DNA of 41,512 nucleotides, taken from the IMG/VR virus record IMGVR_UViG_3300007510_000017, positions 1-41,512 of that record. One strand, given 5' to 3'. Under the pieces are notes generated by a model that saw only the letters and a list, made by a program, of their open reading frames with translations, had not been told where the DNA came from and ran no database searches. Below are positions 8,885 to 27,589 of this stretch, one piece after another. Position numbers and translations under genes: made by a program. The first letter of the stretch is position 1. The number at the start of each line of letters is the position of its first letter. This DNA is from a virus.

Positions 8885-11338
8885 ATGCTGACACCTCCCC
8901 CTACAAAATCCATTGAGAGAGCAAAGCTCGAACGAGATATTGGAGTCAAAACAAAGCTCCGCAAAGGTTCCCCCAGTGCGGGTCAGTCGGCATTTGCGTT
9001 GGGTGTCTGTGTAGTGACTCAGGTGATCTACGAAGATTACTATGTGAAACTGCGAACCGTCATCGGGGAAGACGAAGAGTATGAGCGAATCCCCGTCCCC
9101 CTCTCATTCCCCGGTGCCGGGGCAAGACACTTCCTTGGTTCAATGCCCGAGGTCGGAGACCATTGTGTAGTTGGGTTCCTCCCCCAAGAGAGTTCTGGGA
9201 CAGGGAGCGGCGTAGGGGCGAAGATTCCGGTTGTGCTCGCCTGGATTCCACAGGGAGTTTGGCACGGCTTTGATTGGATGATCACACAGCCGTATTCCGT
9301 GGATGAATACGATTTCACCTCTCGGCAGAATGCCATGGTCGATGGCATCTTCCAGAGAGTTCGACATAAAATGGCGCACATGCAGCCGGGCGACGTGCTC
9401 GCCAGTTCTTCCAAAGGTGCTGATCTAATTCTCGACGAATCGGTCACGCTGATGAATCGGCGTTGCAATGAACTACGACTCCGTGACCAAGATCAAGCAT
9501 TCATTCTGCGCTCCCTTCAGCAATTTCATGCCATGTCGGGGACTCGTATCTATGGGGGTATGGTTCAGCGTGACGGCACCCTCCTGCAAACCCAGATGAT
9601 TAGTGACGGGTTGTATTGGGAGTCCGGTGATCAAAGAGCCGAAGGCGACGATGGCATACAGCCCGTCTATGGTGCAGGGATCGAGGAAGCTCCTTCAGGC
9701 ACCCCTTTTCTCCAAGAGTGGACAACGCATCCTGAAGGGCGATTGGCACCGGCCAGAACTTTGCGGAAACGAATTGACATCGACGGCAGTGAACTTGACC
9801 CTGAGTTCCCTCTCCCACCTGCCATTGATCCTTTCTCCATTCTGAAGGATGGCCTTTTCATTGATGAGAATGGGAATGCGGTTGAACCTCCTTTAGGTGT
9901 TCCGGGTACCACCTCGGATGCCGTGTATGGTGGCAAGCCTATGTATCGGGTGTCGGCATTGACAACCCCGGCTGATATCCCCGAGAATACCGCTGCGAAC
10001 GAATCCGCAGAGACTTTGACAGAATACCGTATGGAGATATGCCATACAGCAGACGGAACTCTCCCGGTGACCGAGCAGACGGATGGCCTGGACGCTGATC
10101 GTATTCCTGCGGGCGGGATCAATACCCCTTTCGTCGAGATGGTGTTTGGCGGAAGCATTGTTGGTAACGATCCCCATACAGAACAGGGCAGATCACAATA
10201 TGGGTTGCCTCTTCAGCTTTCTGTGTTTGAGGGCACAACCCCGGTAGGGGATTTGGTTTCGGCTTTGGGTAAGCCGGTGGGTGACCATGGGGCAACCTTG
10301 TTCAAACTCAACCCCATAGATGGCTCACACCCTACTGCCTGGTCTGTGAACAAGAAGGGGCAACTCAAAGCTTTTGTCGGTGGTCCCGAGCAGGAGAATT
10401 CGATAGAAGCAGCCCTGCAAGGTGGTTTGAAGTTCCGTTGCAAAACCCTCGATTTGGATTTCGATGCTCTGGTTTTGCGCTCACAAACTGCTGATCCCAG
10501 TACGGGAAACATCGGTTTGGGGCTTCAGAGTGAATCCGGGGCAGTACATATCTACGGTGGTGGTCAGATTAGCACGGGGGATGCGGCACAAGATTCAGCC
10601 GGGATTGAAGGGTCTGACGATTCCCGTCCTAGCGTTTTGATTGAGGGTGCCAGTGCTGCCGTCATGCAGAGTAGCAAGTACACTCGGATCGCATCCACAG
10701 CCCAGACCCTTGTAGATGGTGCCACCACAGCGGTATCGGGATCAACTGAAGTGCAGGTCACAGCCGGTGATCGGTTGACCCTCTCGGCCAAAGAGGTTGT
10801 CAAGAACTCGAATGGGAAAGAGGTCAACAACTACAGCGGGCCAAAAGACTTTCTGCCCACGAATGGCCCCTACCGAGAAACGGTCTTCTCTGGAATGATC
10901 CCGGGTGGCACCGTAGACAAATCCACATACAAGATCGGGGATCGGGAAGAAGAGTTCAAACTTGGGAACCACACCACCTCTATGACGATTGGGGATATGA
11001 CGTATCAGACCACTTCTGGCAAGATCCTCAACAAGGCGGCATTGAACACTTCGGAACTGGATGCTTCTTCGGGACTCTCAACCTCCGTCAAGGTTGGTAC
11101 AGTGTCAATAGAGGCGAAGGCCGGTTCCTCTACATTGGTGGGGCAGGTTTCTGTTACAGCAAAAAGCACTGGAAAAGCCTCATTAAGTGGAAGTGCAGGT
11201 GCTTTCCTTGGAGGCCCGGGGAAGATTGGAAACATTGTGAGTAGTGCGGACATTGATCCATTGACAGGGTTGCCGTTGGGTTCCCCCCTCTTAGGTGCGA
11301 TGGGAAGCCCCGGCCACAAAATAGGGTTGCCGGTTTAG
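8885..11338 (+). CDS. Baseplate central spike/needle protein (OB-fold, gp5/gpV-like)
   Basis: 817 residues. ATG at 8885 has a very strong ribosome site (AGGAGAGGAG at 8868-8877). Seen: residues about 37-105 read as an OB-like beta barrel (YYVKLRTVIG, then RIPVPLSFPG, LGSMPEVGDHCVVGFLPQ), as in T4 gp5 and P2 gpV N-terminal domains. The middle is beta-rich with short Gly turns (IYGGGQIS, VLIEG). The end, from about 690 to 790, repeats short strands around Gly (LGNHTTSMTIGDMTYQTTSG; KSTGKASLSGSAGAFLGGPG), the pattern of triple-stranded beta-helix needles. The tail has a Pro/Gly-rich cap (LTGLPLGSPLLGAMGSP). Family role: trimer at the tip of the tube that pierces the outer layer. No lysozyme domain is present, unlike T4 gp5. 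No separate PAAR tip gene is evident, although the C-terminal cap could serve. Confidence 0.77.
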   Translation: MLTPPPTKSIERAKLERDIGVKTKLRKGSPSAGQSAFALGVCVVTQVIYEDYYVKLRTVIGEDEEYERIPVPLSFPGAGARHFLGSMPEVGDHCVVGFLPQESSGTGSGVGAKIPVVLAWIPQGVWHGFDWMITQPYSVDEYDFTSRQNAMVDGIFQRVRHKMAHMQPGDVLASSSKGADLILDESVTLMNRRCNELRLRDQDQAFILRSLQQFHAMSGTRIYGGMVQRDGTLLQTQMISDGLYWESGDQRAEGDDGIQPVYGAGIEEAPSGTPFLQEWTTHPEGRLAPARTLRKRIDIDGSELDPEFPLPPAIDPFSILKDGLFIDENGNAVEPPLGVPGTTSDAVYGGKPMYRVSALTTPADIPENTAANESAETLTEYRMEICHTADGTLPVTEQTDGLDADRIPAGGINTPFVEMVFGGSIVGNDPHTEQGRSQYGLPLQLSVFEGTTPVGDLVSALGKPVGDHGATLFKLNPIDGSHPTAWSVNKKGQLKAFVGGPEQENSIEAALQGGLKFRCKTLDLDFDALVLRSQTADPSTGNIGLGLQSESGAVHIYGGGQISTGDAAQDSAGIEGSDDSRPSVLIEGASAAVMQSSKYTRIASTAQTLVDGATTAVSGSTEVQVTAGDRLTLSAKEVVKNSNGKEVNNYSGPKDFLPTNGPYRETVFSGMIPGGTVDKSTYKIGDREEEFKLGNHTTSMTIGDMTYQTTSGKILNKAALNTSELDASSGLSTSVKVGTVSIEAKAGSSTLVGQVSVTAKSTGKASLSGSAGAFLGGPGKIGNIVSSADIDPLTGLPLGSPLLGAMGSPGHKIGLPV

Positions 11339-11340
11339 AG

Positions 11341-11916
11341 ATGCCATTATCAGCAGCAAATATAACGGCTGGCATAATGTCAGCGGGAGCAGGGCAATCC
11401 ATAAGTGGCCCCTCCTTCCCTAAGCTGGCAACTGCGATTGGGAATGGGGTCTATGCGTGGGCGATTGTGCCTGCTAACCTGGTAATCTCCGGAGTAACGA
11501 CAGGGACAGCAGGGACCGGTCAGACGAATGGAAATCTAACTGTGGTGCCCCCCAATGTGGCTACCGTTGTGACAGCCCTGGCGGGGGCAAATATCAAGGG
11601 GGTGGTTGCTCCTCGATTGGCTACTGCGGTGGCGACCGGGATTTCAACGGCGTTCATCGGGGCTACCTACAAAGGAGTCTCGGTGGGAGTCGGGGTCGGG
11701 GCTGACCTTGGGGCGATTTCGTTCACGAATGGCCCAACTTTGGCCGCAGCAATTTACGCAGCGATGACAGACAAAGGGCCAGCAGCGGCTTCTGTTGCAC
11801 AGGGATTGGGCATTGGAATTGCCACTCAACTTTTGGGGGCGACAGCAGTAGGCACCGTGACCGGGCCTCCTAGCCCCACAGCAGCTTCGGGAACAAGTAC
11901 AAGCGGGTTGGTATAA
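11341..11916 (+). CDS. Ala/Gly-rich small baseplate-region protein with three internal repeats
   Basis: 191 residues, unusually rich in Ala, Gly, Thr and Val, with almost no charged residues. The start at 11341 is 2 nt after the spike stop; there is no good ribosome site (TAGGG at 11322-11326 is 14 nt away), so it probably depends on read-on from the spike gene. Seen: three imperfect units of about 60 residues, each with a G-x-P/V...LA-A-x-x-x-G-I/V core: GPSFPKLATAIGNGVYAW, GVVAPRLATAVATGISTAF and GPAAASVAQGLGIGIATQL, each followed by a short Gly-rich beta-like segment. I recognise this style of protein from other large phage baseplate clusters, always unnamed. It could be a hydrophobic plug or coat around the spike; that is speculation. 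The alternatives are a membrane-interacting protein or a minor structural protein. Confidence 0.72.
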   Translation: MPLSAANITAGIMSAGAGQSISGPSFPKLATAIGNGVYAWAIVPANLVISGVTTGTAGTGQTNGNLTVVPPNVATVVTALAGANIKGVVAPRLATAVATGISTAFIGATYKGVSVGVGVGADLGAISFTNGPTLAAAIYAAMTDKGPAAASVAQGLGIGIATQLLGATAVGTVTGPPSPTAASGTSTSGLV

Positions 11917-11919
11917 CAA

Positions 11920-14900
11920 ATGGGATTCAGCTTTTCAGGACACGTAATCAACGGAGCGAGGGCGGCTTCCTCAAATGCCTCTTCAACTGCCCTTCCGGTG
12001 AGTGGGGTTGTAAGAGACATCAAGCCCTTGACCGGGAGCCTCCCCGTTGTCGAGGGGAATAACCCGGCTTTAGTTGACCTTCACGGGGATCAGTATCGAG
12101 CAGCCATTCTGAACTCTCCTGTCAGCGGAACTTCTGAATACTTGATCTGGGCGGCGAACTCCAGCCACCTCTCGATTGTTGCGCCCACGGTCTTTGATCC
12201 CTCTGACCCATGGGTCATTGTCGGAGGAAGCAACTCAATCCCTATCGGGACAACACAGACCATAGACACGTTGGCAACCTCGGGTTATCAGCAAGATGGC
12301 ACGAACCGAGTTGTGGTTCGAGATGCCAATGGTCGGAGCATCTCGAATATCTATTCGGTGAAAATTCATCGTGGGGATACGGATACAGATCATACACTTG
12401 TGGCTGCGGATTTCTACGCTGTAGACCCTGACGCCAACCTGGTAACAATCAAAAGTTCAGTCCTAACGGCCACCTTCGGGGGTGCCCTTTCGGTTGGGCG
12501 TGGGGATTATGTAGTTGAAGCGAGTTACTTCATATCGCCACCCCGGTTCTGGTGGACTCGCAATGATCCTTACGAAACTCGTTTCGGATGGGATAGCAGC
12601 ACCCAAAGTTGGAAACCATACAAAGGTGGCGCAGTAGATACCTTGGGAGCTTTGTCTACCAGTGAGTACACCCTGACACCGAGACCCTCAGGGGTCACCG
12701 TGGGAGACTATCTCCCGGGGAGTGATGCCGGGGACGCCTACTGCATGATCCGAGTAGGGATGACCCCCAATAGCTCCAGTGTTCCAGTAGCCTACAAAGC
12801 TGTTGTACCGGCGGGACAGTTCTCAGGAATCCTCGTGGTTACTGATGAAGAAGCCACTACGGATTACGATTTCACTGGAAGCGATATCGCCGGAATCGTG
12901 GCAGTTTCGGAAGGAACACTCATCTTTAACCCGAGTTTTGTCAATACCTACGCCGGGATGAACGTCTGGTACTCGACCAGAAGCTTCAAGAAAGAGAATT
13001 CAGGTATCGTTGGGTACTTGTTGGGTGCCGATACGACTCCTTTGTTCATTGCCCCAATTCCCGAACCAGGACAGTATCCTTTCCTTCGAGTAGGTTCACG
13101 GCGTCCTTTGTCTGCAACAGTTGTGGATACTGAGGCAGATCTGGCGGCACTCACTTTGCTGGAAAATGAGGTGGGGGTCGCCCTTTCTACCGGGATGCTG
13201 CTGTTCAACAGCGATTTCGTGAAGAAAGCAGATCCGGTCGAGTCTGGATTCGATATCGAGTATTTGGGAGCAAGAATCCAGTATGACGGTGTTTCTTTCA
13301 CCCAACAGTCTCAACCTCCAAGGGCACCCGTAGCTTTGACCAACGTAACGGCTGTCCCCACTCTGGTCTCATCCTTGACGCCGCTATATGTGCCCGATGC
13401 TGACGTGAGAGGCTTGGATGGCCTGGGCACTTCAGGCATTCTGCATGAGCCTGATGACACGGGGGCGACCCCTAATGCCACCAATGTCCCTAGCGCGAGA
13501 CCTGGTGGAGACAGTTTGACAGAGGCAACCACGGGCTTGGTGCGGCGAGTAGAACCCAGCAGGCCCAGCGGAGAGACTCTAGGAGATGTATTTGCGTTTG
13601 GTGCAGCCCGAGCTTTGGATAGCCTGACAGTGAATGAAAGAGCTTCAGATCTCCCGAATATGTCCTTTAAGGTTAAAGGAGGCACCATTCATGTTGCGGA
13701 GGTTCCCTCTTCAACAACGCCGAATGTCTCCCTCACGGCTTTGAGTTCGACAGATAGGGCGAGATTTGATGACGAGTACATGTACTTTGCTCAGTCAATT
13801 CTGACCCCTGCCACGTACACAGATATCCCTCGTGTGGTGAGTCGGATCAGGGATACTTTCACATTGGTCGGGACAGAGCATCTCTATTTTGAGATCAACG
13901 GAACCTTCTACGATTGGGATGCCAGTGTTGATTTCCCGGCCGGGGGCACCGTTACCACGACTCAGGTGGCAACGAGTCTGGCCACTCTGATTGCCGGAGA
14001 CCCGAATGCAGCGGCGGCTGATCTAAATGGATTCCTGACCCTGGCGAGCACCTCCGTCGGTGGAACGATTGAGATTGCCTTTGGTCAGAATGGTGAGCGG
14101 GACATTTCCGGTTGTACGGCTCTGGGGATTCTTCCCGGCTGGAAAGCTATTGGGGGAGAGGATTGGTGGCTCGTGGATTCAGGGTTGAGCTTCGGTCTAT
14201 TCAGAACTCCCCTCAATTTGGATCGAACCGAGACAGAAGCAGATTACTATGCCCGGTACAGTGTTTCGGACATCACCATCTCCGAGTCCGTTTCACAGAT
14301 CCCGGTGGTGACATTCAACCAACCGCCTCTGCAAGACGTGGCGGGGTATGACGAGGGGGTCTTCTTTCAGATCACCACGACCATTCAAAAGGGAGTCTCT
14401 GAGACCATCTACCAGAAGCCTCTGAGAAACTTGGAGGATGTTCTCTACCGCTTTGAGGAGAACCACTTCAAGTGGTTGGAGAGCAACTCGGGAGTAGACC
14501 CCATCTATCGCCCGACTCAAACTCTTCCGCTGGGAGAGAACAATGTCGTTCTGGACACTCTGTATGGTGTCGCCCCCAATGCAACCGGGGGCGTCTTCCT
14601 GGCTGAGGACGGCGGCAGTTACACTTTTGGTGTCCCCAATGTGGACTATCTCCTTGATGCGGGCACAGGAAATATCACTCTCGTAGAATCTGTTGGGACT
14701 CTGGTGGGGCGTGGTTATGGGGGATCGTGGTCTGCCTCAGGGACAACCCTGACCAATGTGTTCCCTACTGGAGCCGACGACTTTATTGCCCTTGAGGTGG
14801 CTGCAGGCTATCGGATTAAGGTTCTGTCCGGGGATTCTGCGGGGTCTTATGAGATCCAATCTGTCACAGATGGGGATCATATCGTGGTTTCCCCTTCGTT

Positions 14901-17900
14901 CCCTGCGGATTCCGGGATCGCTCCGATTGCGTGGGAAGTTTACGAGGGCATCCCGACGGGGACATACAACCCGGCTATTGTTGCCGATGTCATCAGTGAG
15001 AACTTCAACCATTTGCCCGAGGAACCATTCAAGATTCGAGTTTTGTCGCCGTTGGGGACGGTTCCCGAAGATGCGGCAGCGCAGTCGGCCTCCAGATTGA
15101 CTGCGGATATGGCGGGTGCTTTGGAGAGCGGAAGAGAGATCAATTTCCGATATGGTTTGAGCCATGGGGCAACAGCAGCGGCTTCAGCAACCTTGATTGC
15201 CACGAATACCGCTACTCTAGTAGAGCTACCGGTTCAAGAACTTGGGACATTGGCGAACGGCTCTTTGTTTGTGCCCGGGGCTGCAGCAAGCCATGCCCAG
15301 CATACACGTTTCGACGATGAAGCCTTTACTGTTCGAGTTGGAACCACTTTGTATTCACATGGAAGTGGGCTGGTTCCAGTTTCCTCTTTCAGCAGCAATC
15401 CAACCGCTGTTGAGTACCTGACAACTACCGGGGAGTTGAAGTTCAATTCGAGTCTCTTGACCAACTATGAGTCCTCGGTGGTGCGTTGGGAAGCCTCGTT
15501 TTTGACCCCGAGCCTTTTGGCTTCTCGCACGGTGGAGTACGATAAATGGGGCAATCTCAATATCTGCGCTACCGACATGACAGCCTTTGGGGGAACAACG
15601 ACAGCATATTTCGTTGAGCGGATGATCACTGAGAGTGGGTTGGATGTGGTGGTGAACCCCATCAATGGGGGCATCTCTTTCACGAAACCGTTGGGCGAAT
15701 ACAAGATAGTCGAGGCTGAATACTATCAAGCTGGCCCCGATGGGAACAAGAAACTGGACGACGATGGGAACGAGATCTTCCGATTGGACTTCCTGCCCTT
15801 GTATGTGAGAGGCGAAGTTTGCACAAGGGTAAATGACCGAAGATACTCCTTTAACCCTGCGGACTCTGCGGGATTCACCAGAACATTGTTTACGGCTCTG
15901 GAGCCGACAACGTACCGTGACACGATTCTGGCAAACTTCGGGGTTTCGGATACGACTTACGACATGGCCAACGACTTCATGGAGTTCAGGGATGCGGTGG
16001 CGACGACCGTCGTGGTCAAGACCAGCTACGCCGTATTGGAGTCCTTTGGTGGGGAGCAAGCATACACGACGCCGGTAATTCCAATCTACCGCCCCCCCTT
16101 CTTCATCGAGTCGGGTGCCGATGATTTCGCTTTGATTGGGGATCGCACTGGGGATGTGTTGCCCGGAATGCTTCTGCGGTTGGGACCGGCCCCCTTCTAC
16201 ATTAAAACATGCGTGTACGATGGGAACACGGATACAACGACCGTAGGTTTTTATCCTGCCACAACCGCAGAAGCGGGATCACGGGCACCCGGGAAAGATG
16301 TGTTGACGGTGCTGACTGATCGCCCGATCACAAGCACGGTAGATGCTGAACATCCCGTGACGGTCACTGGCGCAGACGATGGGTTCATGCTCACGGTTAC
16401 ACAGGATTGGGAACCTGCAGATCGAGGGCAGTCCAACATCGTTATTGAAGGCAACCTTCTTCAATGGGCAGTACCAGGGCACATTATTGAGGTAGGGGGC
16501 TGTCCCCACGTCATTGCTGCTGCCGACATGAACGAGGAAGTTACCAAGACGATCATCAATGTTACGACACCCTTCTTGCGTGGGTACCGAGACTATCGGA
16601 ATACAGTTAGAATCTCTGTGCGACCAGTTTATCCACCGACCCCCAGAGACTTCCTCGGGATAGCCCCGGTGTATCAAGATCGTCCCGTGGAACTTGTCAT
16701 TTGGGGTGAGCAAGATTCGGCTGGCAATACGCTTCCGGGGCGCACTTTGATACAAGGTGTGGGCTATGACCTCGACTATGCGACCGGGGCAGTCTCCCTG
16801 ATTGATCCCGTTGAGTTACCCATGTTGTCGGGGCAGACGTTGACGCTGCGGTACACGAAAGAGAAGATTCTGGCTCCGATCAAAGCAGACGGGATGGTCA
16901 CATTACCTCGGGTCCGTTACCAGTATCGGTTTGCGACTCCACCATCTGAGGAGAATGGGTTCCTCGGAGCTTTCTTGCAAGGCTCATACACGTTCAGCAA
17001 TCCCGACTCCTTTTACTGTCGGGTCATCCCCTTTGCCTCTTATACCGGGCAGGCGGCTCGTGAGATTTTGGAAGCCAGCAAATCTGAACAAGGAACAACT
17101 GGTGGGCCGGTGGTACCGTTCTTTGGTAGTCCCGAGAACTACGATGCCGGGGCAGCCGGGATAGATACAAAGCGAACTGATCTAACTGACAAAGATCGGG
17201 CAGCTAGAGGGTTCCTCGACTTCTATTGCCAAACTGTAGGTGCCCTGGAGCAGATCAAAGAAACAATCACCGGCGAAGTTGTCGGTGATCGTGACGGCAA
17301 GATTCGATTCTTTGTGGGGAGAGATAAAGAGTATGCGCCTCCCGGCTATGAGGATCAGTTCACGGGCATCTTGAATCCTCGAAGTGTCTTCTCCGAAGTC
17401 TTTCAGGAGGAGGCGTCCAATTGGGATGTTCCAGTTCTGTTTGATGACAACATTGTGAACCCGAACTCGGCGCAATTGGTTGATGGTGCCGTATTGGGGC
17501 GGTTCATGAGCGGATATTCCTTGGACTCATTGATTGTTCGTCAGCGGGGGGCTATCGAAAACGATGTCGATGATATCGTGATGACCTCGTTGGGGAAAAC
17601 CTCGGTTACCTGGAACCCGTTCCCATTCATCAGATTCTCGGCCAAGGGTAACTATGAGCCGCTCTATGATCCTAATGAGTTTTCTCGGATCTTCCCTGAG
17701 CTTTCTCGTGGGTACCTGACGGCCTCTCCAGGGATCGAATCGGATTTGGAGGGAGGAGACTACGGATCATTCTCTTTCCTGCGCCTAGTCGATTGGGATT
17801 GGCAGCGAACTTGGAAGACTCCGATTGGACAGATCGGCAACCCCGTCATTCCTGCGATCACTGATATTCGAGATGTTGTAGTGGCCAAAAGAATGCCACG

Positions 17901-20900
17901 AGCACGCATCTGGGGGTATTTCCCGAGAGGTATTCCGGCGGATGCACTGGGGACAGGGTACCCGCCCAACCCGATCCTTGTACCTTGTCTTATTGCGACT
18001 CCCTTGCATCTCCCCGACTTCCCCGTCAACCCGGAAACAGGTTGGCCGGATGCGGCTCAATTGCAAGCTCAGAATACGACGCCCCCTGGCACGGGTCTCT
18101 TGGATTTGACCACGGGTGATCCAGAACTCCATCTACCCCCTCTGTCTCATCCTTTGTTTGGGGCGTTCTCCCCACGGGCGCAGGTTGCTTTTGGGCGTCC
18201 CGATGGAACTTTGTTCGCAGTCGGCTCTCCGCAACAGATCCTTGGTGGTTTGTTGGCACAGATGTCGGGAGTCTTTGTACATCAGGTGCTTTACGGATGT
18301 GTCATCACCTTCAAGACTTTGACTCCAGTCGGGGGTGCGACCCCGATTACCAATGCGGCCATGCTCCAACAGCTTGAAACCCCGTCCAGCGGTACCATCT
18401 TGGAATTGGAGAAGGGAGACACGTTCTACATTATTCCTCCGGGTGGGAGTGCAGAGGAGACAGAAGACCCGCCGACCGAAGAGGATTTCACGAAGTTCAT
18501 GCAGTCGATGCCTGCCTACAGGGAAGGCTTTGATGTTGGCCTCAAGAAGAAATCCGGGATTCTGATTGACAAGTCTCTCCCCGGTGGAGATGACCCGATT
18601 CCATTGTTGGGGTTCAACCTTCAGAATTGGTTTGGGCAGAGTCCCCCTAGTCCCGGCGAAGCACTCCAGGTGGACGTAGAGTTCTCCAACAGTATGACAA
18701 AGCCGTTGTTGATCCCGGCCCTGGAGGGGCTTCCTACGGATGACACGGGTGACTATTCGATTCCCTATTTGGGTGGCAACGACACGGAATTGATGGCTTT
18801 GGGCGACGCTCAGGTGCTTGCGGGCGAGATTATCACGACGGTTTCATTTGCGTCACCGTTCCCCACGCCCCCACCTCCCGCATGGGATTTCGTCTATCCT
18901 GATGAGATTCTGGCTAATGATGGGGCGATCCGTACTTCTCTTGCAGGGGACATTTCACCGGCGGCTCTGTTGACAACTCAGCTTTACGACCCGGTGACGA
19001 ATCCTCTTGGGAGTGCTGTAGCAGTCGGAGTCGAAGATGCCCGTGCTTACGATCTCCTATTTATGGAGATTGATACGGGGACGCCTGAGATTCCTGAGGG
19101 GTCACAGGGCATCCTGTCTATTGGGCGTGTGCAGCGCAATGGCCTCAACACGTACAGTATGATCGAGCCACCCCGTTTCGTCACACAAACTCCGGTGGGC
19201 AGTGTCATCAAATACGAGTTGGAAAACTTCGTTGGCTACATGCACGATGAGACTCCATATGTCTGGGTTGTCGGAGACCCACCACCTCCGTTGCCCCCGA
19301 CAACTTCTGGAGTCTTGATCATAAACGATTCAACACCTGGTGCTGAGGTGTTGACCTTTGATTTCACCACTACCCCGCAACTTGCGTTGGACGACGGGAC
19401 AGGTGGGCCACCAGGAACCGGAGGGTTGAATACAATTCTGGCCGCAAATCCGAACAATGTCCTGAAGATCAGACTCTTTGTGCGAGAAGCACTGGGCGGG
19501 TTCTGGCCGGGAGACTATGCGACGTTTACAGTTTCATTGGGAGAGATTCTGATTGCGGGTCAGGCGGCAGGTGTTCATACAGTGACGGGGGATGCGGCGA
19601 TACCCGGTCTCACGGTGACGATTTCGGCTAAACAAATCGTGATAACAGGCATCGGGGCTTCCGCAGTTCTCAATCTACCGGGAGGGCACCCTGAACTTCC
19701 TAATGACGGAGGAGTCCCTGTTTGTACGACCAACTATGAGTTTGATTACACATTGTCTTTGGACACCGTGTCTGGGGAATCCGCCACGGCTTTTGTGGAG
19801 AATGACAGGCTCTCTTTCAAAGAGGTCTTGGATACTCGGTATGCTCGTGATCGAACAGCTATCCATGCCTACGGCAAACAGCATATGGGTTGTAGTCTGC
19901 TTGTTGACCAGAATGTTGTGGAAGGGGATGTTACCAGTAATATCAATCGGGACATTAACTTTGGCCCGAACTATCCTTTGACCTTCCTTGAAAGAGATGA
20001 CACTGCCCTTGATCCCAATACCGGTGTGACACGAGGAGTCGGGGTCTGGAATGCTGCCTCTGCCCCTGGTGCCGGGGATGAGTTGGGAATTGTTCGAGCC
20101 ATGGGCTTTGAGGGCTTCAATGCTGGTGGCCCTGGTGCTTTGGCAAGTGCTACTGCGACCCAACTTGTCGGTCAGATCGACAACGTAACTGTGACCGGGC
20201 CTGGATCGGGCTATTTAGGTGGCTATGTAGATGTAACAATTGGGGATGCTGGTCCTGGCTATGGGTATGTGGGATTGGCCGTTGTAGATGCTGCGGGTTT
20301 GGTTACAGGCGTGACCACATTGAACCCAGGACATGGGTATGCAGCCCCCCTTGCTCCGGTTTTCACTCATATGTGTGGCAACATGGCCATCGAGGTGACA
20401 CAGGCTGCGACCTTCTCTATGGTTCCTTCAATGGCTTACGACCAAACTGAGCTTGTGGCTGGAGATTTGGGGATTATCTGCGATGGTACAGGAGATATCC
20501 AGAACGCCACACAGAGTATCATCACAAATGTCGATGTGGCGGCTGGTTTGGGAGGGGGTCTGGGGAAGGTACAACACGGAGATGTTGTTGTCGTTGAGGA
20601 GGGGGCGACGGTTGCAGGAACGATAAAAGCCGGGACGTATCTCACACGCCATGCAGTTGAGGCAAACTCCATCACCGGTGTTGGCACTCTCACAAATGAT
20701 GCTGTGAGAGCCGTGACCCTGGAAGCTGTGGCTGGGGGCGGTGGTTGGGCAGAGATCCAATTCCCCAAGATCGATACCAGAGCCGTCGTCAAGGTCAACA
20801 TTGTTTCCTCTTCGGTGGCCCCTGATGCAGTGTTCTCTACGGCGACAAACCATGGTCTGAGCATTGGCGGCACAGTTTTGATCGCCAACCATACTGAAAA

Positions 20901-23736
20901 TTCCTTGAACGGAAGTTTCACGGTGGGTGCTGCCAGCTTTACGCCGACCACCTTTACGATTGGGCAGGCAGGCACGGGCGGTACCGGCGGAACTGCGGGA
21001 CACACTTCTCCTGCAATCGACATGGCAAACCGAAGGGTGCGGGTGGATAACCTTTTCAGTGTTGGTGCGGGACATGCTTTTGAAGCAACAGGGAGAGTGT
21101 ACTTCATCACGAGTCTCAACGGGGTCAACTCTGAGTCGGTCAGTGCAGAGTATACTTCCGTGAATGGAACGGTGGGTGCCGCAGAATATGGCAGATTCCA
21201 GTTGGCAGTGAACACGGGTGCAGGTGAATTTCGGGATAAAGACGGCACCCCGATCACGGTTTTGAACGAACAAACACAGTTCTGGGATCTCCTCTCTGCT
21301 GGGATGACGGCTTCAGGGATGTCCTACTTCACTATTGACATGGGCGATGCCGAAACTGGTTTCCCTGCAAATAACGTTGTGGGTTTTGTTGATGATACCG
21401 GAGGCACTCAGAGAGCAGTTTACGGTTTTGCGGGGATCACCATCACAACCGGGACAACCCCTCAAGAGTTCATGTACGATACCTATGGGGCAGCGGGAAC
21501 CTACCTGGACATCAAGGCTGTAGTCGGCACAGCAGAGTCCATTGTCATCGGCACGACAGCAGCAACTGCGAGCACGACATTCGTAACGCCGACAGATACT
21601 CCTGTTTTCAGTGACATCCCAACATTGATGGACATCTCCGAGTTCAAGAAAGGCATCAGTGTTGTTGGAGATGCGTGGTTCCAGATCCGGGTGAACAAGG
21701 GTGTAACCTGTTTCCTCCCCGGTGATGTCCTTTCGACAGAGGCGACTTTCACAGCGATTGCACCGACTCCTGTCCAACCGAATGTAGGGACAAATGGGTT
21801 CTGGGCCAAGAGTGGCATCTTCACGGAACCCTCATGGCCCATCCCGACCCAGAACTTGGCAGCGGACAGTCTCGGGGATCAAAGAGTTGTTGCTGCAACA
21901 ACTCCCGCAGTAGGGGCGGGAGAGATCGGGTTCCGTATGGGCGGTTACGATGAGACCGTGAAACTCCAAGTGCGGAGAATCCGACGGTTCCACGACCTCC
22001 AGACAGATTTGAACGATGCTTTGAGTCCGCTCCGATACGCTTATGAGATTCGTCGGGGTCGAATGACAGCATACCAAACGGGTGCCACTGCCAAGCAGGT
22101 TGGAATTGTTACAGCCCAGAATTTCCAATTCCCTTCGGATTCGCCCTACTTCAGGGGAGGTTTACTTTACAATGGAACTCAATTGGGGGGCTTCGATGAC
22201 CCGAGCGTGAACATCTGGGGAGGTGACATCTTCAGACTCTTGCGGGTGGATATGACCGCAGATCACCCCCGTCCTGTCGAACTTGTCGAGGAGGCGAGGG
22301 TACTCCGCAAATTAGATCAGCACACCCTGCATCTGGCAGCCCCAGGGCTAACGGACCCGACTTTCCTCGCTGATGTGGCTTTGGGCCAGTATCAAGATTA
22401 CTGGTTTGAAATTTACCTGAGAAGACCCATTGTCCCTCAGGAGCAATCGGCAGAACAACTGCTTGATCTCCTAACTGACCAGGTAGTCACAGAAACTCTG
22501 GCCAACTACGATTCCCAGACCGGTGGCTATGTAGATAGCATTGTCGGGAGCACTTATGTAGCCAGAATGAATAAGCTCAAGGATGATACCCCGGCTGCCG
22601 GAACTTTTGCAGCCAGAGGGGTACAAGTCGATGACATTGTGCTTGTTGATCCTGCGGGACAGGCTGCAGGCCCGGGTGGGGTCACGACGATTCCCGAATG
22701 GGGGTCCAGGCCATATGGGGACTTAGCAGTTGCTCCGAGAGCAGGGCAAGACCCTGCCTTCTACGATACCAGTACGCCCTCACCGTTGGATGACAACCGG
22801 GGCTTCTATCGAGTGACCTTGGTAGACGATGCCAACTCTCAGTTGGAGTTGGATGGCACTTGTGAGTTCGGGGGAATCAAGGCGAATGATGTAATTTTCC
22901 CCGAGAATGTAACCGCACAGGAAGAACACGGGTATGCCATTTATCCCACCATCCACGGCTCCTTGTTGAATCTCGTGGACGATGAGGAAGGGCAGGTTGA
23001 TCTTCGTCCGACGATGTTGGCCGGTTTGGACGATGCGGGCGCACCTGCAGTTGATCCCGATTCCTTTGCCGAAAGCAATCACTCCATCCGACCTTTCTCT
23101 TACAAAGTGATTCGACCCTCTTCACTGTTCTCTACCGAAGCGGCGAACTTCATTTTGGCGAACCGGGAACGGACTCTCTCTTTGATTGAGCAATTTAGAG
23201 CCGCAATTTCCGGGGATAAGGGCGGCAACTATTTCGTATTCCAGCGGGACGACCATATTTTCGATCTGGGAGTTCTGGGAGTTCCCGATACCGGGAAAGG
23301 AATCTTCCCCAATTCACTTCTCACAGACATCATTGGGCAAACTACCATCGTGCCCTTTGGGAGCGACTACGATTGTCTCTCGATTCTGGATCGGCGTTTC
23401 TGGGATTTGGATGAGCGGCTGGATCAGTTGACCAGTGATGGGACTGGGTTTGGAGTCAAAACAGTGGGGCCGGGTGAAACTCCGTACACGGGGTACGAAG
23501 ATGTTACCTCTTCGCCCCCTCCATCTGCGGTTCGACCGGTGCTCCCAGATCGAGTCGATGTCTTACTCAATACCAGTGATCGGATTCGAGCTTTGCGGAA
23601 TTCATGGCTGACTTTGAGAACAAATCGTAAGAATGGGACTCTGGTGGCGATTTCTCGTTTTGACGAGGAGATCCCTGAGTTGAAAGAACAAGAGTTTGAA
23701 TACCTGATGCAGAAGAAGGGGTTGGATGACAGCTAA
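11920..23736 (+). CDS. Giant modular baseplate/tail structural protein (3,938 residues)
   Basis: One open frame of 11.8 kb, 3 nt after the previous stop, with a weak ribosome site. Almost entirely beta-predicted sequence. Seen in order: residues 1-1650, at least seven copies of a beta unit of the type 'xxxTGxLxFNxxF...GxxVxxxY' (see repeat entry); about 645-741, a module resembling the flagellar hook IN motif, ending ALGILPGW; about 934-1008, a module with AGSYEIQSV; about 1783-1802, ITGEVVGDRDGKIRFFVGRD after a helical stretch; about 2751-2811, paired GSGYLGG and GHGYAAP strands; about 2958-3027, a unit like the small beta barrel called E1-FCCH in fibre proteins (ATNHGLSIGGTVLIA). The last 250 residues (SYKVIRPSSLF, YFVFQRDDHIFDLG, RRFWDLDERLD) turn helical and resemble ends of other very large phage virion proteins. 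No enzyme motif is visible. Its location between spike and wedge genes suggests a baseplate scaffold or long radial fibre; function unknown. Confidence 0.88.
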   Translation: MGFSFSGHVINGARAASSNASSTALPVSGVVRDIKPLTGSLPVVEGNNPALVDLHGDQYRAAILNSPVSGTSEYLIWAANSSHLSIVAPTVFDPSDPWVIVGGSNSIPIGTTQTIDTLATSGYQQDGTNRVVVRDANGRSISNIYSVKIHRGDTDTDHTLVAADFYAVDPDANLVTIKSSVLTATFGGALSVGRGDYVVEASYFISPPRFWWTRNDPYETRFGWDSSTQSWKPYKGGAVDTLGALSTSEYTLTPRPSGVTVGDYLPGSDAGDAYCMIRVGMTPNSSSVPVAYKAVVPAGQFSGILVVTDEEATTDYDFTGSDIAGIVAVSEGTLIFNPSFVNTYAGMNVWYSTRSFKKENSGIVGYLLGADTTPLFIAPIPEPGQYPFLRVGSRRPLSATVVDTEADLAALTLLENEVGVALSTGMLLFNSDFVKKADPVESGFDIEYLGARIQYDGVSFTQQSQPPRAPVALTNVTAVPTLVSSLTPLYVPDADVRGLDGLGTSGILHEPDDTGATPNATNVPSARPGGDSLTEATTGLVRRVEPSRPSGETLGDVFAFGAARALDSLTVNERASDLPNMSFKVKGGTIHVAEVPSSTTPNVSLTALSSTDRARFDDEYMYFAQSILTPATYTDIPRVVSRIRDTFTLVGTEHLYFEINGTFYDWDASVDFPAGGTVTTTQVATSLATLIAGDPNAAAADLNGFLTLASTSVGGTIEIAFGQNGERDISGCTALGILPGWKAIGGEDWWLVDSGLSFGLFRTPLNLDRTETEADYYARYSVSDITISESVSQIPVVTFNQPPLQDVAGYDEGVFFQITTTIQKGVSETIYQKPLRNLEDVLYRFEENHFKWLESNSGVDPIYRPTQTLPLGENNVVLDTLYGVAPNATGGVFLAEDGGSYTFGVPNVDYLLDAGTGNITLVESVGTLVGRGYGGSWSASGTTLTNVFPTGADDFIALEVAAGYRIKVLSGDSAGSYEIQSVTDGDHIVVSPSFPADSGIAPIAWEVYEGIPTGTYNPAIVADVISENFNHLPEEPFKIRVLSPLGTVPEDAAAQSASRLTADMAGALESGREINFRYGLSHGATAAASATLIATNTATLVELPVQELGTLANGSLFVPGAAASHAQHTRFDDEAFTVRVGTTLYSHGSGLVPVSSFSSNPTAVEYLTTTGELKFNSSLLTNYESSVVRWEASFLTPSLLASRTVEYDKWGNLNICATDMTAFGGTTTAYFVERMITESGLDVVVNPINGGISFTKPLGEYKIVEAEYYQAGPDGNKKLDDDGNEIFRLDFLPLYVRGEVCTRVNDRRYSFNPADSAGFTRTLFTALEPTTYRDTILANFGVSDTTYDMANDFMEFRDAVATTVVVKTSYAVLESFGGEQAYTTPVIPIYRPPFFIESGADDFALIGDRTGDVLPGMLLRLGPAPFYIKTCVYDGNTDTTTVGFYPATTAEAGSRAPGKDVLTVLTDRPITSTVDAEHPVTVTGADDGFMLTVTQDWEPADRGQSNIVIEGNLLQWAVPGHIIEVGGCPHVIAAADMNEEVTKTIINVTTPFLRGYRDYRNTVRISVRPVYPPTPRDFLGIAPVYQDRPVELVIWGEQDSAGNTLPGRTLIQGVGYDLDYATGAVSLIDPVELPMLSGQTLTLRYTKEKILAPIKADGMVTLPRVRYQYRFATPPSEENGFLGAFLQGSYTFSNPDSFYCRVIPFASYTGQAAREILEASKSEQGTTGGPVVPFFGSPENYDAGAAGIDTKRTDLTDKDRAARGFLDFYCQTVGALEQIKETITGEVVGDRDGKIRFFVGRDKEYAPPGYEDQFTGILNPRSVFSEVFQEEASNWDVPVLFDDNIVNPNSAQLVDGAVLGRFMSGYSLDSLIVRQRGAIENDVDDIVMTSLGKTSVTWNPFPFIRFSAKGNYEPLYDPNEFSRIFPELSRGYLTASPGIESDLEGGDYGSFSFLRLVDWDWQRTWKTPIGQIGNPVIPAITDIRDVVVAKRMPRARIWGYFPRGIPADALGTGYPPNPILVPCLIATPLHLPDFPVNPETGWPDAAQLQAQNTTPPGTGLLDLTTGDPELHLPPLSHPLFGAFSPRAQVAFGRPDGTLFAVGSPQQILGGLLAQMSGVFVHQVLYGCVITFKTLTPVGGATPITNAAMLQQLETPSSGTILELEKGDTFYIIPPGGSAEETEDPPTEEDFTKFMQSMPAYREGFDVGLKKKSGILIDKSLPGGDDPIPLLGFNLQNWFGQSPPSPGEALQVDVEFSNSMTKPLLIPALEGLPTDDTGDYSIPYLGGNDTELMALGDAQVLAGEIITTVSFASPFPTPPPPAWDFVYPDEILANDGAIRTSLAGDISPAALLTTQLYDPVTNPLGSAVAVGVEDARAYDLLFMEIDTGTPEIPEGSQGILSIGRVQRNGLNTYSMIEPPRFVTQTPVGSVIKYELENFVGYMHDETPYVWVVGDPPPPLPPTTSGVLIINDSTPGAEVLTFDFTTTPQLALDDGTGGPPGTGGLNTILAANPNNVLKIRLFVREALGGFWPGDYATFTVSLGEILIAGQAAGVHTVTGDAAIPGLTVTISAKQIVITGIGASAVLNLPGGHPELPNDGGVPVCTTNYEFDYTLSLDTVSGESATAFVENDRLSFKEVLDTRYARDRTAIHAYGKQHMGCSLLVDQNVVEGDVTSNINRDINFGPNYPLTFLERDDTALDPNTGVTRGVGVWNAASAPGAGDELGIVRAMGFEGFNAGGPGALASATATQLVGQIDNVTVTGPGSGYLGGYVDVTIGDAGPGYGYVGLAVVDAAGLVTGVTTLNPGHGYAAPLAPVFTHMCGNMAIEVTQAATFSMVPSMAYDQTELVAGDLGIICDGTGDIQNATQSIITNVDVAAGLGGGLGKVQHGDVVVVEEGATVAGTIKAGTYLTRHAVEANSITGVGTLTNDAVRAVTLEAVAGGGGWAEIQFPKIDTRAVVKVNIVSSSVAPDAVFSTATNHGLSIGGTVLIANHTENSLNGSFTVGAASFTPTTFTIGQAGTGGTGGTAGHTSPAIDMANRRVRVDNLFSVGAGHAFEATGRVYFITSLNGVNSESVSAEYTSVNGTVGAAEYGRFQLAVNTGAGEFRDKDGTPITVLNEQTQFWDLLSAGMTASGMSYFTIDMGDAETGFPANNVVGFVDDTGGTQRAVYGFAGITITTGTTPQEFMYDTYGAAGTYLDIKAVVGTAESIVIGTTAATASTTFVTPTDTPVFSDIPTLMDISEFKKGISVVGDAWFQIRVNKGVTCFLPGDVLSTEATFTAIAPTPVQPNVGTNGFWAKSGIFTEPSWPIPTQNLAADSLGDQRVVAATTPAVGAGEIGFRMGGYDETVKLQVRRIRRFHDLQTDLNDALSPLRYAYEIRRGRMTAYQTGATAKQVGIVTAQNFQFPSDSPYFRGGLLYNGTQLGGFDDPSVNIWGGDIFRLLRVDMTADHPRPVELVEEARVLRKLDQHTLHLAAPGLTDPTFLADVALGQYQDYWFEIYLRRPIVPQEQSAEQLLDLLTDQVVTETLANYDSQTGGYVDSIVGSTYVARMNKLKDDTPAAGTFAARGVQVDDIVLVDPAGQAAGPGGVTTIPEWGSRPYGDLAVAPRAGQDPAFYDTSTPSPLDDNRGFYRVTLVDDANSQLELDGTCEFGGIKANDVIFPENVTAQEEHGYAIYPTIHGSLLNLVDDEEGQVDLRPTMLAGLDDAGAPAVDPDSFAESNHSIRPFSYKVIRPSSLFSTEAANFILANRERTLSLIEQFRAAISGDKGGNYFVFQRDDHIFDLGVLGVPDTGKGIFPNSLLTDIIGQTTIVPFGSDYDCLSILDRRFWDLDERLDQLTSDGTGFGVKTVGPGETPYTGYEDVTSSPPPSAVRPVLPDRVDVLLNTSDRIRALRNSWLTLRTNRKNGTLVAISRFDEEIPELKEQEFEYLMQKKGLDDS
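12421..16870 (+). repeat. Recurrent beta unit in the N-terminal 1,650 residues of the giant protein
   Basis: At least seven diverged copies at protein level: residues about 168-204, 323-357 (EGTLIFNPSFVNTYAGMNVW), 419-457 (TGMLLFNSDFVKK), 908-934 (DYLLDAGTGNITLV), 1164-1195 (TTTGELKFNSSLLTNY), 1243-1275 (NGGISFTKPLGEYKIVEAEY) and 1613-1651 (YDLDYATGAVSLIDPVE). Each has a turn with Gly, an aliphatic-aromatic strand, a short loop and a strand that ends in an aromatic residue. Spacing is irregular and other modules lie between copies, so this is repeated domain use and not a simple tandem array. DNA identity between copies is low, which implies old duplication. Confidence 0.6.
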
Positions 23737-23959
23737 AACACACGAAGAACTCTTTGCCGAGTTGGAGAAGAAGGGCGTCAAGCTGGGGCAATGGGGTAAA
23801 TTGAAGGGCGGCAAAAGACAAACCCCGAAAATGAAAGGGCAGGAACAGATCCTTCTGAAACTGCGAGGGCTTCTGCAGACTCAGTTGGATGCAGATATGG
23901 TTTCTTTGGAACAAGCCAAAGAGAAACTAGCCCGTTTGGAACACGGGGGCGGGATGTAA
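23726..23959 (+). CDS. Small charged protein overlapping the end of the giant gene
   Basis: 77 residues, rich in Lys, Glu, Gln and Leu. ATG at 23726 lies 11 nt inside the previous gene (whose TAA is 23734-23736), with AAGGGG at 23716-23721, and its TAA at 23957-23959 is one base before the next start, so it is coupled on both sides. Seen: a first helix (HEELFAELEKKG), a basic glycine-containing middle (KLKGGKRQTPK), and a long amphipathic helix (about residues 38-72). No signal peptide or membrane segment. I do not recognise it. Its coupling suggests a small partner or assembly factor for either the giant protein or the 906-residue protein. It is unlikely to be a chance frame, because it fills the only gap between two genes and has its own ribosome site. 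Confidence 0.75.
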   Translation: MTAKTHEELFAELEKKGVKLGQWGKLKGGKRQTPKMKGQEQILLKLRGLLQTQLDADMVSLEQAKEKLARLEHGGGM

Positions 23960-23960
23960 G

Positions 23961-26681
23961 ATGGCCGAAATTGGAAAATGGACGGGCGGTAAACCTTGGG
24001 AGTGGCCCGACGATTGGGATGATTGGAAAGACGACGTAAATACCGTTGCGACCTTTTTGATTGACCTATTGGATATTGCAGTTCAAGCGTTGGAACTGGC
24101 CAAAGCCTTTATTCCGTCTTACATAGACCCGATCTCGGCAATCGTGGCCGCAATCGTTGAAGAGATCAAATCCTACGTGAAAGACCTTCAACAGTCCGGG
24201 GCATACGCTGTAGGCGATTGGTCGGAGGTGTATTTCAGTTACCCATTTGAGAATCTGAAGGGAGGTTTCACAGAATACGAAAAGAGAATGGTTGGCAGGC
24301 TCACAGATTGGAAAGACCCCAACCGCCCCAATGTTTCCCCCAGAACGAAAACGCTTGCTTTGTTTTTCTATGCCACCGTGGATGTCTCTGAGGTACAGAA
24401 ACTCAAGCGGATTATCAGGGCGTTCATGAAGATGTTTGATTTTAAATCGAACATGAACCCGTTGCCACAACCGATCAATCTAGCTGCGGAATATGGTACC
24501 GATGGGATGAGCATTTTCAGTTTTGGCCCCCTCTTTTCCAGTGGAATGGGGAAGAAGCCCCCAGCGGTAGCGAACCTGACATGGGAAGTTCCGAAGCCCA
24601 TTCAGCCTGAGCTTACCAGTATTGGTACCGGGGTTGTTCCTCCTGTGGATGGTTTCATTGTTGAGGTCTCCACGGTGCCTGAGGGCATCAAGCTCATGTA
24701 TGATCGCCCAAAGGAAAGCTCGAAGCAGACCAAAGAGGATGCAGAGGGGAACCAGAAGAAAGAGAGAGAAACAGGATTCGTTCAGAAATACGACGGAACC
24801 CCGGTAGTGCTTTGGGGTGGCGGCGATCAATTAAAGGTCAACGAAGATATTTGGTTGGACAATTCCATTGGGGCTGACGGTACCGTGAAGGAGGGAGCGG
24901 TCAGAGTCTTTGGTCAGGTCTCAGACTCTGATCCAGGCAAGGCATTGATTCCTCTTGAGAATCTCAAACTTGAGAACCCAGACGGCAGCTACGACTATTA
25001 CCTACAACGGACATTCATGGTCGGGCAGCTTGCTTCCGCATTCTCCCCTGGTTCTTCCTACACGATCTCTCTGGCTTTGAAAGATCTCCCCAAAGACGCC
25101 GATTTCGTGTTGGAAGACGGTGAGTTCATTATTGAAGACAACGGACATCCAACAACCTTTTATGCCCGGGTCAGGGCTTGCAGTGACCTGATTGAGAATA
25201 GCGTGGGGTTGTTGGGTTCCCCTTCTGATGAGTCTTTTGCGTACAAGTTCGATTTGAGTCTCGATACGATCCCGTCTGAAGGTCCGGTTTCTGTTCAGTT
25301 TGTGCCCGATGCGGATGGGGATGCCCCCTATTTCGATGATGTTGGCAACCCCTCAGTCCCATTAGTTCTCACGTTCCCCAATGAGATCACCTATCAATTC
25401 TTGCAGGCAGTTGAGGCTGCGGTGATTGTTTTGGCGTTGAGTCGCCCAGATTACACGCCTCTTGATGATATGACTGAGTTTGATGCCGACGACCTGACAG
25501 CAATCAGGGCTGGAACTTCTCAGAAGATTTTGCCCTATTCTGCGGTGGCCGATTCCACTACAGGGTTAGAGGGGTTCTCGGAATTGCTGGTCAAGATCAT
25601 GGGGGACAATTATTGGGATCGGTACTCCGACAGCAAACGGTCGGTCACCTCATTCAGAACATACTTGATCCGGAAAGCCCGTGCGGTTGCTTTGGAACTG
25701 TACGAGTTGATGGGTAGGCCAATGCCTGCACTCGAAGAAAGAATGGTTAATGAGACCAAGAAGCTGAGGGAAACGGAACTCGGATTCGTGGCTGGGGATA
25801 AAACAGAACAAACTATCCTCGAAGCGGCCTATTCCAGGGAAGATGAATACGGGCTTGCGGCGAACCCTTATCAAGTTTTTGGGGAAAATCTTCCTAGCAC
25901 GGTGTTCATTTCGGAAGAAGAGTCCTATACCAGCACAATGGTCAAATACGACTACAAAGCGGAACCCGCCCGTCAAGACAAAGACTTTTGGATTCCGATG
26001 TCTGACCTGAGTCCTGAGGTTAAAGACGAACTCGATGCCATCACGATTTTTTCTTATAAGGAAGAGACAATCGATGATGTCAATTACTATGTCCCCTACA
26101 CGAACCCCCTGGCACCTGCAGAATCGAGGTACCCTGCCGCTGCCCATACACCTGTCTTTTTCGACGAGGCGAGTCAGCAAGTGGCATTTGTTCGGACCAT
26201 GATCACTACCGATATGTATGACGAAGCCAAGATGGTCTTGAACCTGGTGGCCGCAGGGTTCCGGAAAAGAGGCTCGGGTGAGTGGGAAGCTTTCCGCTTC
26301 TTCCCCCAATTGCCAAAGTTCATGGATTTCATGAAAGCTATCGAGAACTGGCTCAAGGCAATTGCTGAAAGCATCAAAGCGGTGGGGGATGCCCTGTTGT
26401 CGTACATCAACTTCATACAGGCACGGGTGCTCGAACTCCAAATGTTCATTCGCAAGATCAACCAGCTTATTCAGTCCCTTCAGCTTTTGGAGATCCCATC
26501 AGGTTATGTTCTTTTGACCTTCTCGGACGGAACTGATGGTGTCCTTTCTGATTTTCAGTCTGCAGAGGACAAACCTGCGGATAGTGCCGCTGCTTATGGT
26601 GCTGGGGCGTTGTTGGTACTTCCACTGGCACCCATTCCGGCGACGGAGTTGATTACTGACCTGCTCGCATCGGAGGATTAA
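23961..26681 (+). CDS. Large structural protein with hydrophobic helical ends, function unknown
   Basis: 906 residues. ATG at 23961, one base after the previous stop. Seen: a Trp/Asp-rich start (KPWEWPDDWDDWKDD), then strongly hydrophobic helices at about 28-75 (ATFLIDLLDIAVQALEL, ISAIVAAIVEEI); a mixed alpha/beta middle, with a possible beta-sandwich section about 215-440; then helical sequence and a second amphipathic helical bundle at about 787-844 (ENWLKAIAESIKAVGDALL, MFIRKINQLIQSLQLL); and an end that contains YVLLTFSDGTDGVLSDFQSA. The hydrophobic ends could pack inside the baseplate or touch a membrane. No transmembrane segment is clear enough to call. I have an impression of similar proteins beside wedge genes in other big phages, but no function is known to me. 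Confidence 0.72.
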   Translation: MAEIGKWTGGKPWEWPDDWDDWKDDVNTVATFLIDLLDIAVQALELAKAFIPSYIDPISAIVAAIVEEIKSYVKDLQQSGAYAVGDWSEVYFSYPFENLKGGFTEYEKRMVGRLTDWKDPNRPNVSPRTKTLALFFYATVDVSEVQKLKRIIRAFMKMFDFKSNMNPLPQPINLAAEYGTDGMSIFSFGPLFSSGMGKKPPAVANLTWEVPKPIQPELTSIGTGVVPPVDGFIVEVSTVPEGIKLMYDRPKESSKQTKEDAEGNQKKERETGFVQKYDGTPVVLWGGGDQLKVNEDIWLDNSIGADGTVKEGAVRVFGQVSDSDPGKALIPLENLKLENPDGSYDYYLQRTFMVGQLASAFSPGSSYTISLALKDLPKDADFVLEDGEFIIEDNGHPTTFYARVRACSDLIENSVGLLGSPSDESFAYKFDLSLDTIPSEGPVSVQFVPDADGDAPYFDDVGNPSVPLVLTFPNEITYQFLQAVEAAVIVLALSRPDYTPLDDMTEFDADDLTAIRAGTSQKILPYSAVADSTTGLEGFSELLVKIMGDNYWDRYSDSKRSVTSFRTYLIRKARAVALELYELMGRPMPALEERMVNETKKLRETELGFVAGDKTEQTILEAAYSREDEYGLAANPYQVFGENLPSTVFISEEESYTSTMVKYDYKAEPARQDKDFWIPMSDLSPEVKDELDAITIFSYKEETIDDVNYYVPYTNPLAPAESRYPAAAHTPVFFDEASQQVAFVRTMITTDMYDEAKMVLNLVAAGFRKRGSGEWEAFRFFPQLPKFMDFMKAIENWLKAIAESIKAVGDALLSYINFIQARVLELQMFIRKINQLIQSLQLLEIPSGYVLLTFSDGTDGVLSDFQSAEDKPADSAAAYGAGALLVLPLAPIPATELITDLLASED

Positions 26682-26683
26682 GA

Positions 26684-27589
26684 ATGTCGTTTGGAGCAAT
26701 GGCACGATTCAGAGTTGGGTATTGGCGAGGAGTTCGTAACTATGTCCTCAGGGAACGGCGGGATGTGGCAAAACGAATCCGAGTCATTGACGCCGAGATC
26801 AGCAGAATAGGCAAGATTGAGATCGAATACGAAAGTGTTGCCGATCCCGTGTCGGGGCGAGTAGATAGAACTGAGAATAGGATTTCGATCAGCGTTACTC
26901 CGGGGTCTTCCTTGGAAAAGATGCTCAAAGCTTACATTGCACAGGGGGGAAACCCCCTCGACATCTCTCAGTTCTTCTACCCGAGTCAGTCGGAGATTGT
27001 GGGGACGGATGCTAATGGTGCCCCTGTCTATAACCACAAGTACCCGTATGGGGGCGTAGCAGCCCCCGAGAGCAGAGATTACGATACGACTAATGAGATG
27101 GATGGCTCACCCGAAGACATGCCCAGCAGCGGCTTCGGGCCGAGTCCCGGGGGATACTTGAATCTGGTGCGCTATGCCCCCAGAAGGGTTGGCGGGCGCA
27201 AAGACTTAAATGATGACCATGCGGTGATCGCAAGAATCTTTGAGCAGGTCAGGTCTTGGTGCAACCAGGAGATCAAAGAGAAGCTCCAGCGCATGGAGTT
27301 CAAGATCCTCAAGCTCTGTGACCTGAGGGAACAGTTGGAGAACGAAAAGAATGAGGTCTTGCAGCAAGCGTTCGGCGGTGTCCTCGAAGGGCTGGACTCA
27401 TTCGATAAAGAACGATTTGCAGAATCCCACAGGGTGCAGAATCTGATTGCAGATGTCGATGAGACCTTGTTTCTCAATACCAGTAGCGGAGTTCCTATTT
27501 TGATGGCTCCTGATGAAGCCGGGATCTCAGCGTTGGAGTGGGCTTATGAGGATGATGTAACCGAGCAGTTTTTGGATCTCATGGCATAA
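26684..27589 (+). CDS. Structural protein with two coiled-coil regions, function unknown
   Basis: 301 residues. ATG at 26684, 2 nt after the previous stop, with GGAGG at 26672-26676. Seen: a basic helical start (residues 5-45, RNYVLRERRDVAKRIRVIDA), a beta-like segment with PVSGRV, a Gly/Pro/Tyr-rich central loop (about 105-165) and a long acidic/basic helix (about 185-245, EIKEKLQRMEFKILKLCDLR) that reads as a coiled coil. Cys are few (WCNQ, LKLCDL). No enzyme motif. It is the last gene before the first of the two larger gaps and so may end a translationally coupled block. A bundle or connector role in the wedge is a guess from position. Confidence 0.68.
   Translation: MSFGAMARFRVGYWRGVRNYVLRERRDVAKRIRVIDAEISRIGKIEIEYESVADPVSGRVDRTENRISISVTPGSSLEKMLKAYIAQGGNPLDISQFFYPSQSEIVGTDANGAPVYNHKYPYGGVAAPESRDYDTTNEMDGSPEDMPSSGFGPSPGGYLNLVRYAPRRVGGRKDLNDDHAVIARIFEQVRSWCNQEIKEKLQRMEFKILKLCDLREQLENEKNEVLQQAFGGVLEGLDSFDKERFAESHRVQNLIADVDETLFLNTSSGVPILMAPDEAGISALEWAYEDDVTEQFLDLMA

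Follow-up and report, generated by a model that had tools for sequence, protein, structure and literature searches.

A family of giant predicted structural proteins encoded between the spike and wedge genes of a contractile-tail baseplate cluster

The DNA analyzed here, called the window throughout, is a 41,512-nt virus fragment from IMG/VR (record IMGVR_UViG_3300007510_000017) in which every large gene lies on the + strand. The genes around its largest frame, W7, follow the order SLT lysozyme, spike, a 191-aa protein, the giant W7 product, a 77-aa protein, proteins of 906 and 301 aa, gp25 and gp6. The features are as follows.

1-1830, + strand: 3' part of a gene for a 1,217-aa protein
1827-4075, + strand: W2 and W3, homologues of Tunturi_5 gp255/gp256 and of phage G gp184
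4075-8880, + strand: W4, 1,601 aa, tail lysozyme with an SLT transglycosylase domain (Pfam SLT, E 6e-18)
8885-11338, + strand: W5, 817 aa, weakly matching Phage_base_V OB (E 0.029) and probably the central spike/hub
11341-11916, + strand: W6, 191 aa, between the spike gene W5 and W7, a position kept in G002-G005, G011 and G018
11920-23736, + strand: W7, 3,938 aa, β-domain string with a helical C-terminus, proposed outer-baseplate scaffold
23726-23959, + strand: small helical ORF, 77 aa, overlapping the W7 stop by 11 nt, a conserved partner of W7
23961-26681, + strand: W8, 906 aa, no database family, third member of a cassette with the two preceding genes, found after W7 in relatives
26684-27589, + strand: W9, 301 aa, baseplate-cluster gene, syntenic in relatives
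27633-28712, + strand: W10, 359 aa, gp25-like sheath initiator/wedge (Pfam Sheath_initiator, E 6e-6; PHROG baseplate wedge)
28716-32237, + strand: W11, 1,173 aa, gp6/J-like baseplate wedge (Pfam Baseplate_J, E 2e-16; PHROG 6, E 2e-25)
downstream of W11, + strand: W12, then W13 and W14, the last a putative fibre
33795-37190, + strand: W13, 1,131 aa, probable tailspike (weak pectinesterase-like β-helix match, E 2e-4)

Together these genes encode the section of a contractile tail that runs from the tail tip to the wedge. An earlier note on this DNA had placed W7 between the spike-side and wedge-side genes of a baseplate, and that placing holds, with the SLT lysozyme and the weak spike OB match upstream and the gp25-like W10 and gp6/J-like W11 nearby downstream, the setting of a contractile-tail baseplate cluster.

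W7 is a real and conserved gene. Its frame (11920-23736, + strand) begins with ATG, ends with TAA and contains 3,938 codons with zero internal stops, a run that at the base composition of W7 would be expected by chance with a probability of ~10^-75. The other two + frames across W7 contain 160 and 171 stops, and no frame there other than that of W7 stays open for more than 307 codons; these stop statistics rule out a chance or antisense frame. The identical gene is present in a second IMG/VR record (47 kb) that reaches ~10.5 kb further upstream than the window, and its homologues are open and unbroken in the relatives examined. Thus, W7 is not an assembly oddity, and the single unbroken frame of 11,817 nt, 28% of the window, that had been read from the letters is confirmed. 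The predicted product has a mass of 420 kDa and a pI of 4.4, with only 2% lysine and 0.4% cysteine.

Relatives of the locus were gathered via an alignment of the conserved gp6/J neighbor, which provided 39 loci and later 183 matching stretches, of which 80 were kept. In checked relatives with enough upstream DNA a W7 homologue lies directly before W8-W11, and W7 itself shares both the core homology and the position before W8-W11 by which we define the family here. All of 33 further records carry a W7 homologue, none with an internal stop. Homologues in relatives are 1,733-3,897 aa long with open frames, the 3,938-aa protein of the window being the longest form found in the family. In a gp6 tree, forms of 3.6-3.9 kaa fall, together with the window, in one clade with a support of 1.0, with the exception of one 2,486-aa member that is probably clipped by a contig end. 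The sister group has forms of 1.7-2.7 kaa, mostly 1.75-2.1 kaa, and the tree does not reveal which of the two forms, long or short, came first. The huge size stressed in the earlier note is therefore real, but it marks the upper end of a family in which proteins of 1.7-2.1 kaa are commoner. Homology to the short form covers W7 residues 1-100, 200-500, 700-1000, 1200-2300 and the C-terminus, and W7 is this core with insertions, chiefly at residues 2300-3450.

Pfam and PHROGs contain no W7 family, the best PHROG being a head-closure family matched at E 0.007 over 70 residues only, and the PDB offered no credible solved chain for profiles of three W7 parts or of a 58-member alignment. Among 50,697 phage records the sole W7 match is LR745208.1, a 485-kb uncultured phage, and peptide-pattern scans for further relatives returned near-identical copies only. 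The W7 family is new, in the sense that it is unrecognized by the public libraries searched (Pfam, PHROGs, PDB). The same Pfam and PHROG searches detected no enzyme domain in W7, and an enzyme was rejected as a candidate; the earlier reading that the protein has no enzyme motif and no characterized function agrees with these results, as no characterized homologue came from the Pfam, PHROGs or PDB profile searches.

Structure models cover part of the chain, namely W7 residues 1-1100 and the core plus C-terminus of the short homologue L038. The AlphaFold model of the latter (1,200 aa, 58 sequences) has a mean pLDDT of 89 and shows β domains that follow one another, one helical pair and, at the C-terminal extremity, four helices, and that of W7 residues 1-1100 has a pLDDT of 63, with well-predicted β domains within 140-460 and 640-1000. 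Profile-profile self-comparison revealed internal repeats at ~241-352, 363-456 and 1102-1195, a second repeat pair at ~1395-1440 and 1499-1544, and a third repeat, a G-x-N-x-G-x-Y β module, at ~934-993 and 3543-3647. This module of ~80 aa also occurs in W12 (twice) and W14, and in at most five copies in W7 homologues. The two models and the internal repeats bear out the modular, β-rich layout with a helical C-terminal end that the first reading had described, and the Pfam and PDB profile searches gave no credible match to a known baseplate or fibre protein.

Foldseek returned no significant whole-chain match to a solved baseplate protein, the query-normalized TM being at most 0.1. The JBD30 baseplate was matched at E 3e-5 with a TM of 0.07-0.12 and an rmsd of 33, values obtained with partial models that indicate a β-chain likeness only. 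Local β-chain likeness extends to phage baseplate, tail-tip, tailspike and cyanophage virion proteins and to one non-phage glycoprotein. Profiles of W7 compared by hhalign with known wedge and hub proteins (T4 gp5-gp12 and gp53; A511 gp97-gp108) reached a best probability of ~1%, and no protein of T4, A511, Tunturi_5, S-TIM5, 121Q or phage G is a chain-wide homologue by hmmsearch or hhalign. The short β module alone gives weak matches, such as one to the S-TIM5 sheath (E 2.5e-4). The S-TIM5 protein AEZ65696, which we equate by length with the top BFVD match H6WFX1, is encoded away from the gp6-like gene of that phage and has no profile homology to W7, and was set aside as a case of shared β-chain architecture only. 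A tape measure was likewise rejected, as W7 is β-rich and sits after the spike gene.

Comparison with known phages places the W7 cassette against a more widely shared core. Phage G of Bacillus encodes, in the same order, homologues of W2/W3, W4, W10 and W11 (gp184, E 3e-18; gp185, E 9e-13; gp187, E 1e-22; gp188, E 9e-54), and its gp186 weakly matches W5 (E 0.004). However, gp186 and gp187 are 12 nt apart with W6-W9 missing between them, and searches for W7 and W8 elsewhere in phage G found nothing. Tunturiibacter phage Tunturi_5 carries in gp240-gp256 homologues of W2/W3, W4 (gp254), W5 (gp253, E 4e-30), W10, W11 and possibly W9, but its W6-W8 interval is occupied by unrelated genes that include gp252 (1,003 aa) and the RCC1-annotated gp245/gp246. 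Consequently, the interval between spike and gp25 looks like a site for adding baseplate elaborations, and the earlier statement that this position is filled by proteins of a few hundred residues is not always correct, given that it is empty in one of these phages and holds other large genes in the other.

The genes that follow W7 appear to belong with it. In 51 of 63 distinct loci W7 is directly followed by a helical, charged ORF of 30-107 aa, which in many cases overlaps the W7 stop codon by a few bases, and the profile of this small ORF matches 0 of 122 control ORFs. LR745208.1 (INPHARED, unannotated) encodes a 3,642-aa W7 homologue with ~34% identity, after which come the same small ORF and W8. 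It differs from the window in that this block is far from, and opposite to, W9-W12, and since the three genes remain grouped there, W7, the small ORF and W8 seem to constitute one unit. Matches of W8 to 121Q gp582 (E 9e-4 over ~80 residues in a tiny database) and to Tunturi_5 gp252 (E 0.05) were judged too weak to be retained. The tail module of LR745208.1 as a whole (L003:5287-45462) is rearranged, with W7, the small ORF and W8 on the + strand and W9-W12 on the - strand, ~14 kb or more away.

Escherichia phage 121Q (Asteriusvirus) encodes a giant protein of 3,323 aa, gp582, beside a gp6-like wedge gene. It differs from W7 in lying downstream of gp6, whereas W7 lies upstream of gp25, and W7 profiles show no homology to it by hmmsearch or hhalign. 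By size and neighbors, gp582 is the apparent counterpart of gp245 from phAPEC6, a phage of the same species. Mass spectrometry of phAPEC6 virions detected this 382-kDa protein through 17 unique peptides (PMC7247149). These non-homologous proteins are the best precedent for W7. The earlier view of W7 as an unusual baseplate giant is upheld as far as characterized homologues are concerned, but a giant gp6-adjacent virion protein is not without precedent. Additionally, huge phages are known to encode very large predicted proteins of up to 7,694 aa, some tentatively structural (Al-Shayeb et al. 2020; PMC7162821); unlike the present description of W7, the passages of that paper that mention them give no position, family or structure. 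New in this analysis are the family with its size classes, the cassette of three genes and the comparison with phage G; what was already known is that huge phages have very large predicted structural proteins.

The first reading had left two roles for W7, a scaffold that wraps the baseplate or a radial fibre, and conservation bears on the choice. When the window is compared with five long-form relatives, 88-100% of W7 can be aligned, with 30-44% identity per residue, much as for W5 and W8-W11. The last 450 residues of W7 belong to the best-conserved stretches of the long forms (29-49% identity). In contrast, W13 is strongly divergent and aligns over just 27-51% between the same phages, where a homologue was found. 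Short variable inserts, at ~2751-2800 and 2951-3050, are all that is peculiar to W7. The protein is conserved over its full length with some variable inserts and lacks the variable distal receptor-binding region of a tail fibre. Nor did known fibre or tailspike families in Pfam or PHROGs match W7. This full-length and C-terminal conservation indicates that W7 evolves like a baseplate part and not like a receptor-binding tip, which favors the scaffold and disfavors a radial receptor fibre. That W7 is nonetheless a radial tail fibre or receptor-binding protein, with one end on the baseplate and β domains that bind the cell surface, is unlikely. Such a role would suit the β-string folds common in phage fibres, the local Foldseek likeness to CBA120 TSP4, endosialidases and a cyanophage virion protein, and the ~80-aa module common to W7, W12 and the putative fibre W14; that β-domain strings occur in fibres and adhesins too also counts against the scaffold. 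It is opposed by the missing hypervariable distal tip, by a C-terminus that stays well conserved while W13 diverges, and by the lack of any enzymatic or known fibre domain (Pfam, PHROGs) in a phage whose adhesin candidates, W13 and W14, are encoded elsewhere.

TSP4 of CBA120 and gp528 of RaK2 are organizers of branching fibres, and W7 could similarly be an adaptor platform, a baseplate-anchored arm that holds and spaces the adhesins W13/W14. We regard this as quite improbable, as W12-W14-type genes are variable or missing beside a normal W7 in relatives and the match to the N-terminal domains of TSP4, although reaching a best probability of 0.96, spans only ~220 columns with poor superposition; the module shared by W7, W12 and W14 and the difference in insert size between clades would both fit an adaptor. 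W7 might instead have a role outside the particle: it could assist assembly as a chaperone, be a scaffold that is shed on maturation, act at the cell surface or be injected. This would be compatible with the fact that virion proteomics is known for none of the phages carrying W7. However, 420 kDa of β domains in a baseplate operon would be costly for a non-structural role and another jumbo phage, phAPEC6, has such a giant protein in its virions (PMC7247149), making this very hard to credit.

We therefore consider it reasonably probable that, in this lineage of huge contractile-tailed phages, the baseplate is enlarged and W7 is one of its structural subunits, docked onto it as part of a cassette added to a phage-G-like core. 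Points that weigh against this are the missing whole-chain fold match to solved baseplate proteins, the variable W7 inserts and the weakness of the match between W5 and phage G gp186. We infer its presence in virions, its location, its docking by the C-terminus and its role, and it would probably be present in 6 or 12 copies. In this structural-subunit model the helical C-terminal bundle would dock onto the baseplate near the wedge, probably joined there by the small helical protein and W8, and the β string would span or girdle the wedge ring, where it may provide the downstream-encoded adhesins with sites of attachment. The cassette would be an elaboration of a spike-gp25-gp6 core that in phage G functions in its absence. 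More tentatively, and with real doubt on our part, W7, the small ORF and W8 might constitute an undescribed additional layer of the baseplate, an outer ring or skirt of several megadaltons. Such a layer would define a widespread lineage of huge phages and be an addition to the phage-G-like core, with W7 differing about twofold in length between the two clades.

Contractile tails are viewed as a conserved minimal machine with optional decorations, to which the W7 lineage of uncultured huge phages adds a conserved cassette. W7 is among the largest phage proteins of structural type and occupies a site that is vacant in the cultured relative phage G. If it builds an outer baseplate layer, this would show how huge phages scale up their injection machine, and would do so with a named, testable unit of three proteins (W7, the small ORF and W8).

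Several minor observations concern the surrounding genes. W2 and W3 look like paralogues, both profiles matching Tunturi_5 gp255/gp256 and phage G gp184. The tail-tip module order common to phage G gp184-gp188 (L162:25819-33766) and window positions 1827-32237 may help to place both. Upstream of the window, within the tail gene region, L064:14279-15640 (- strand) encodes a 453-aa protein that carries two ROS/MucR zinc-finger stretches, matches HNH endonucleases weakly and is perhaps a homing nuclease.
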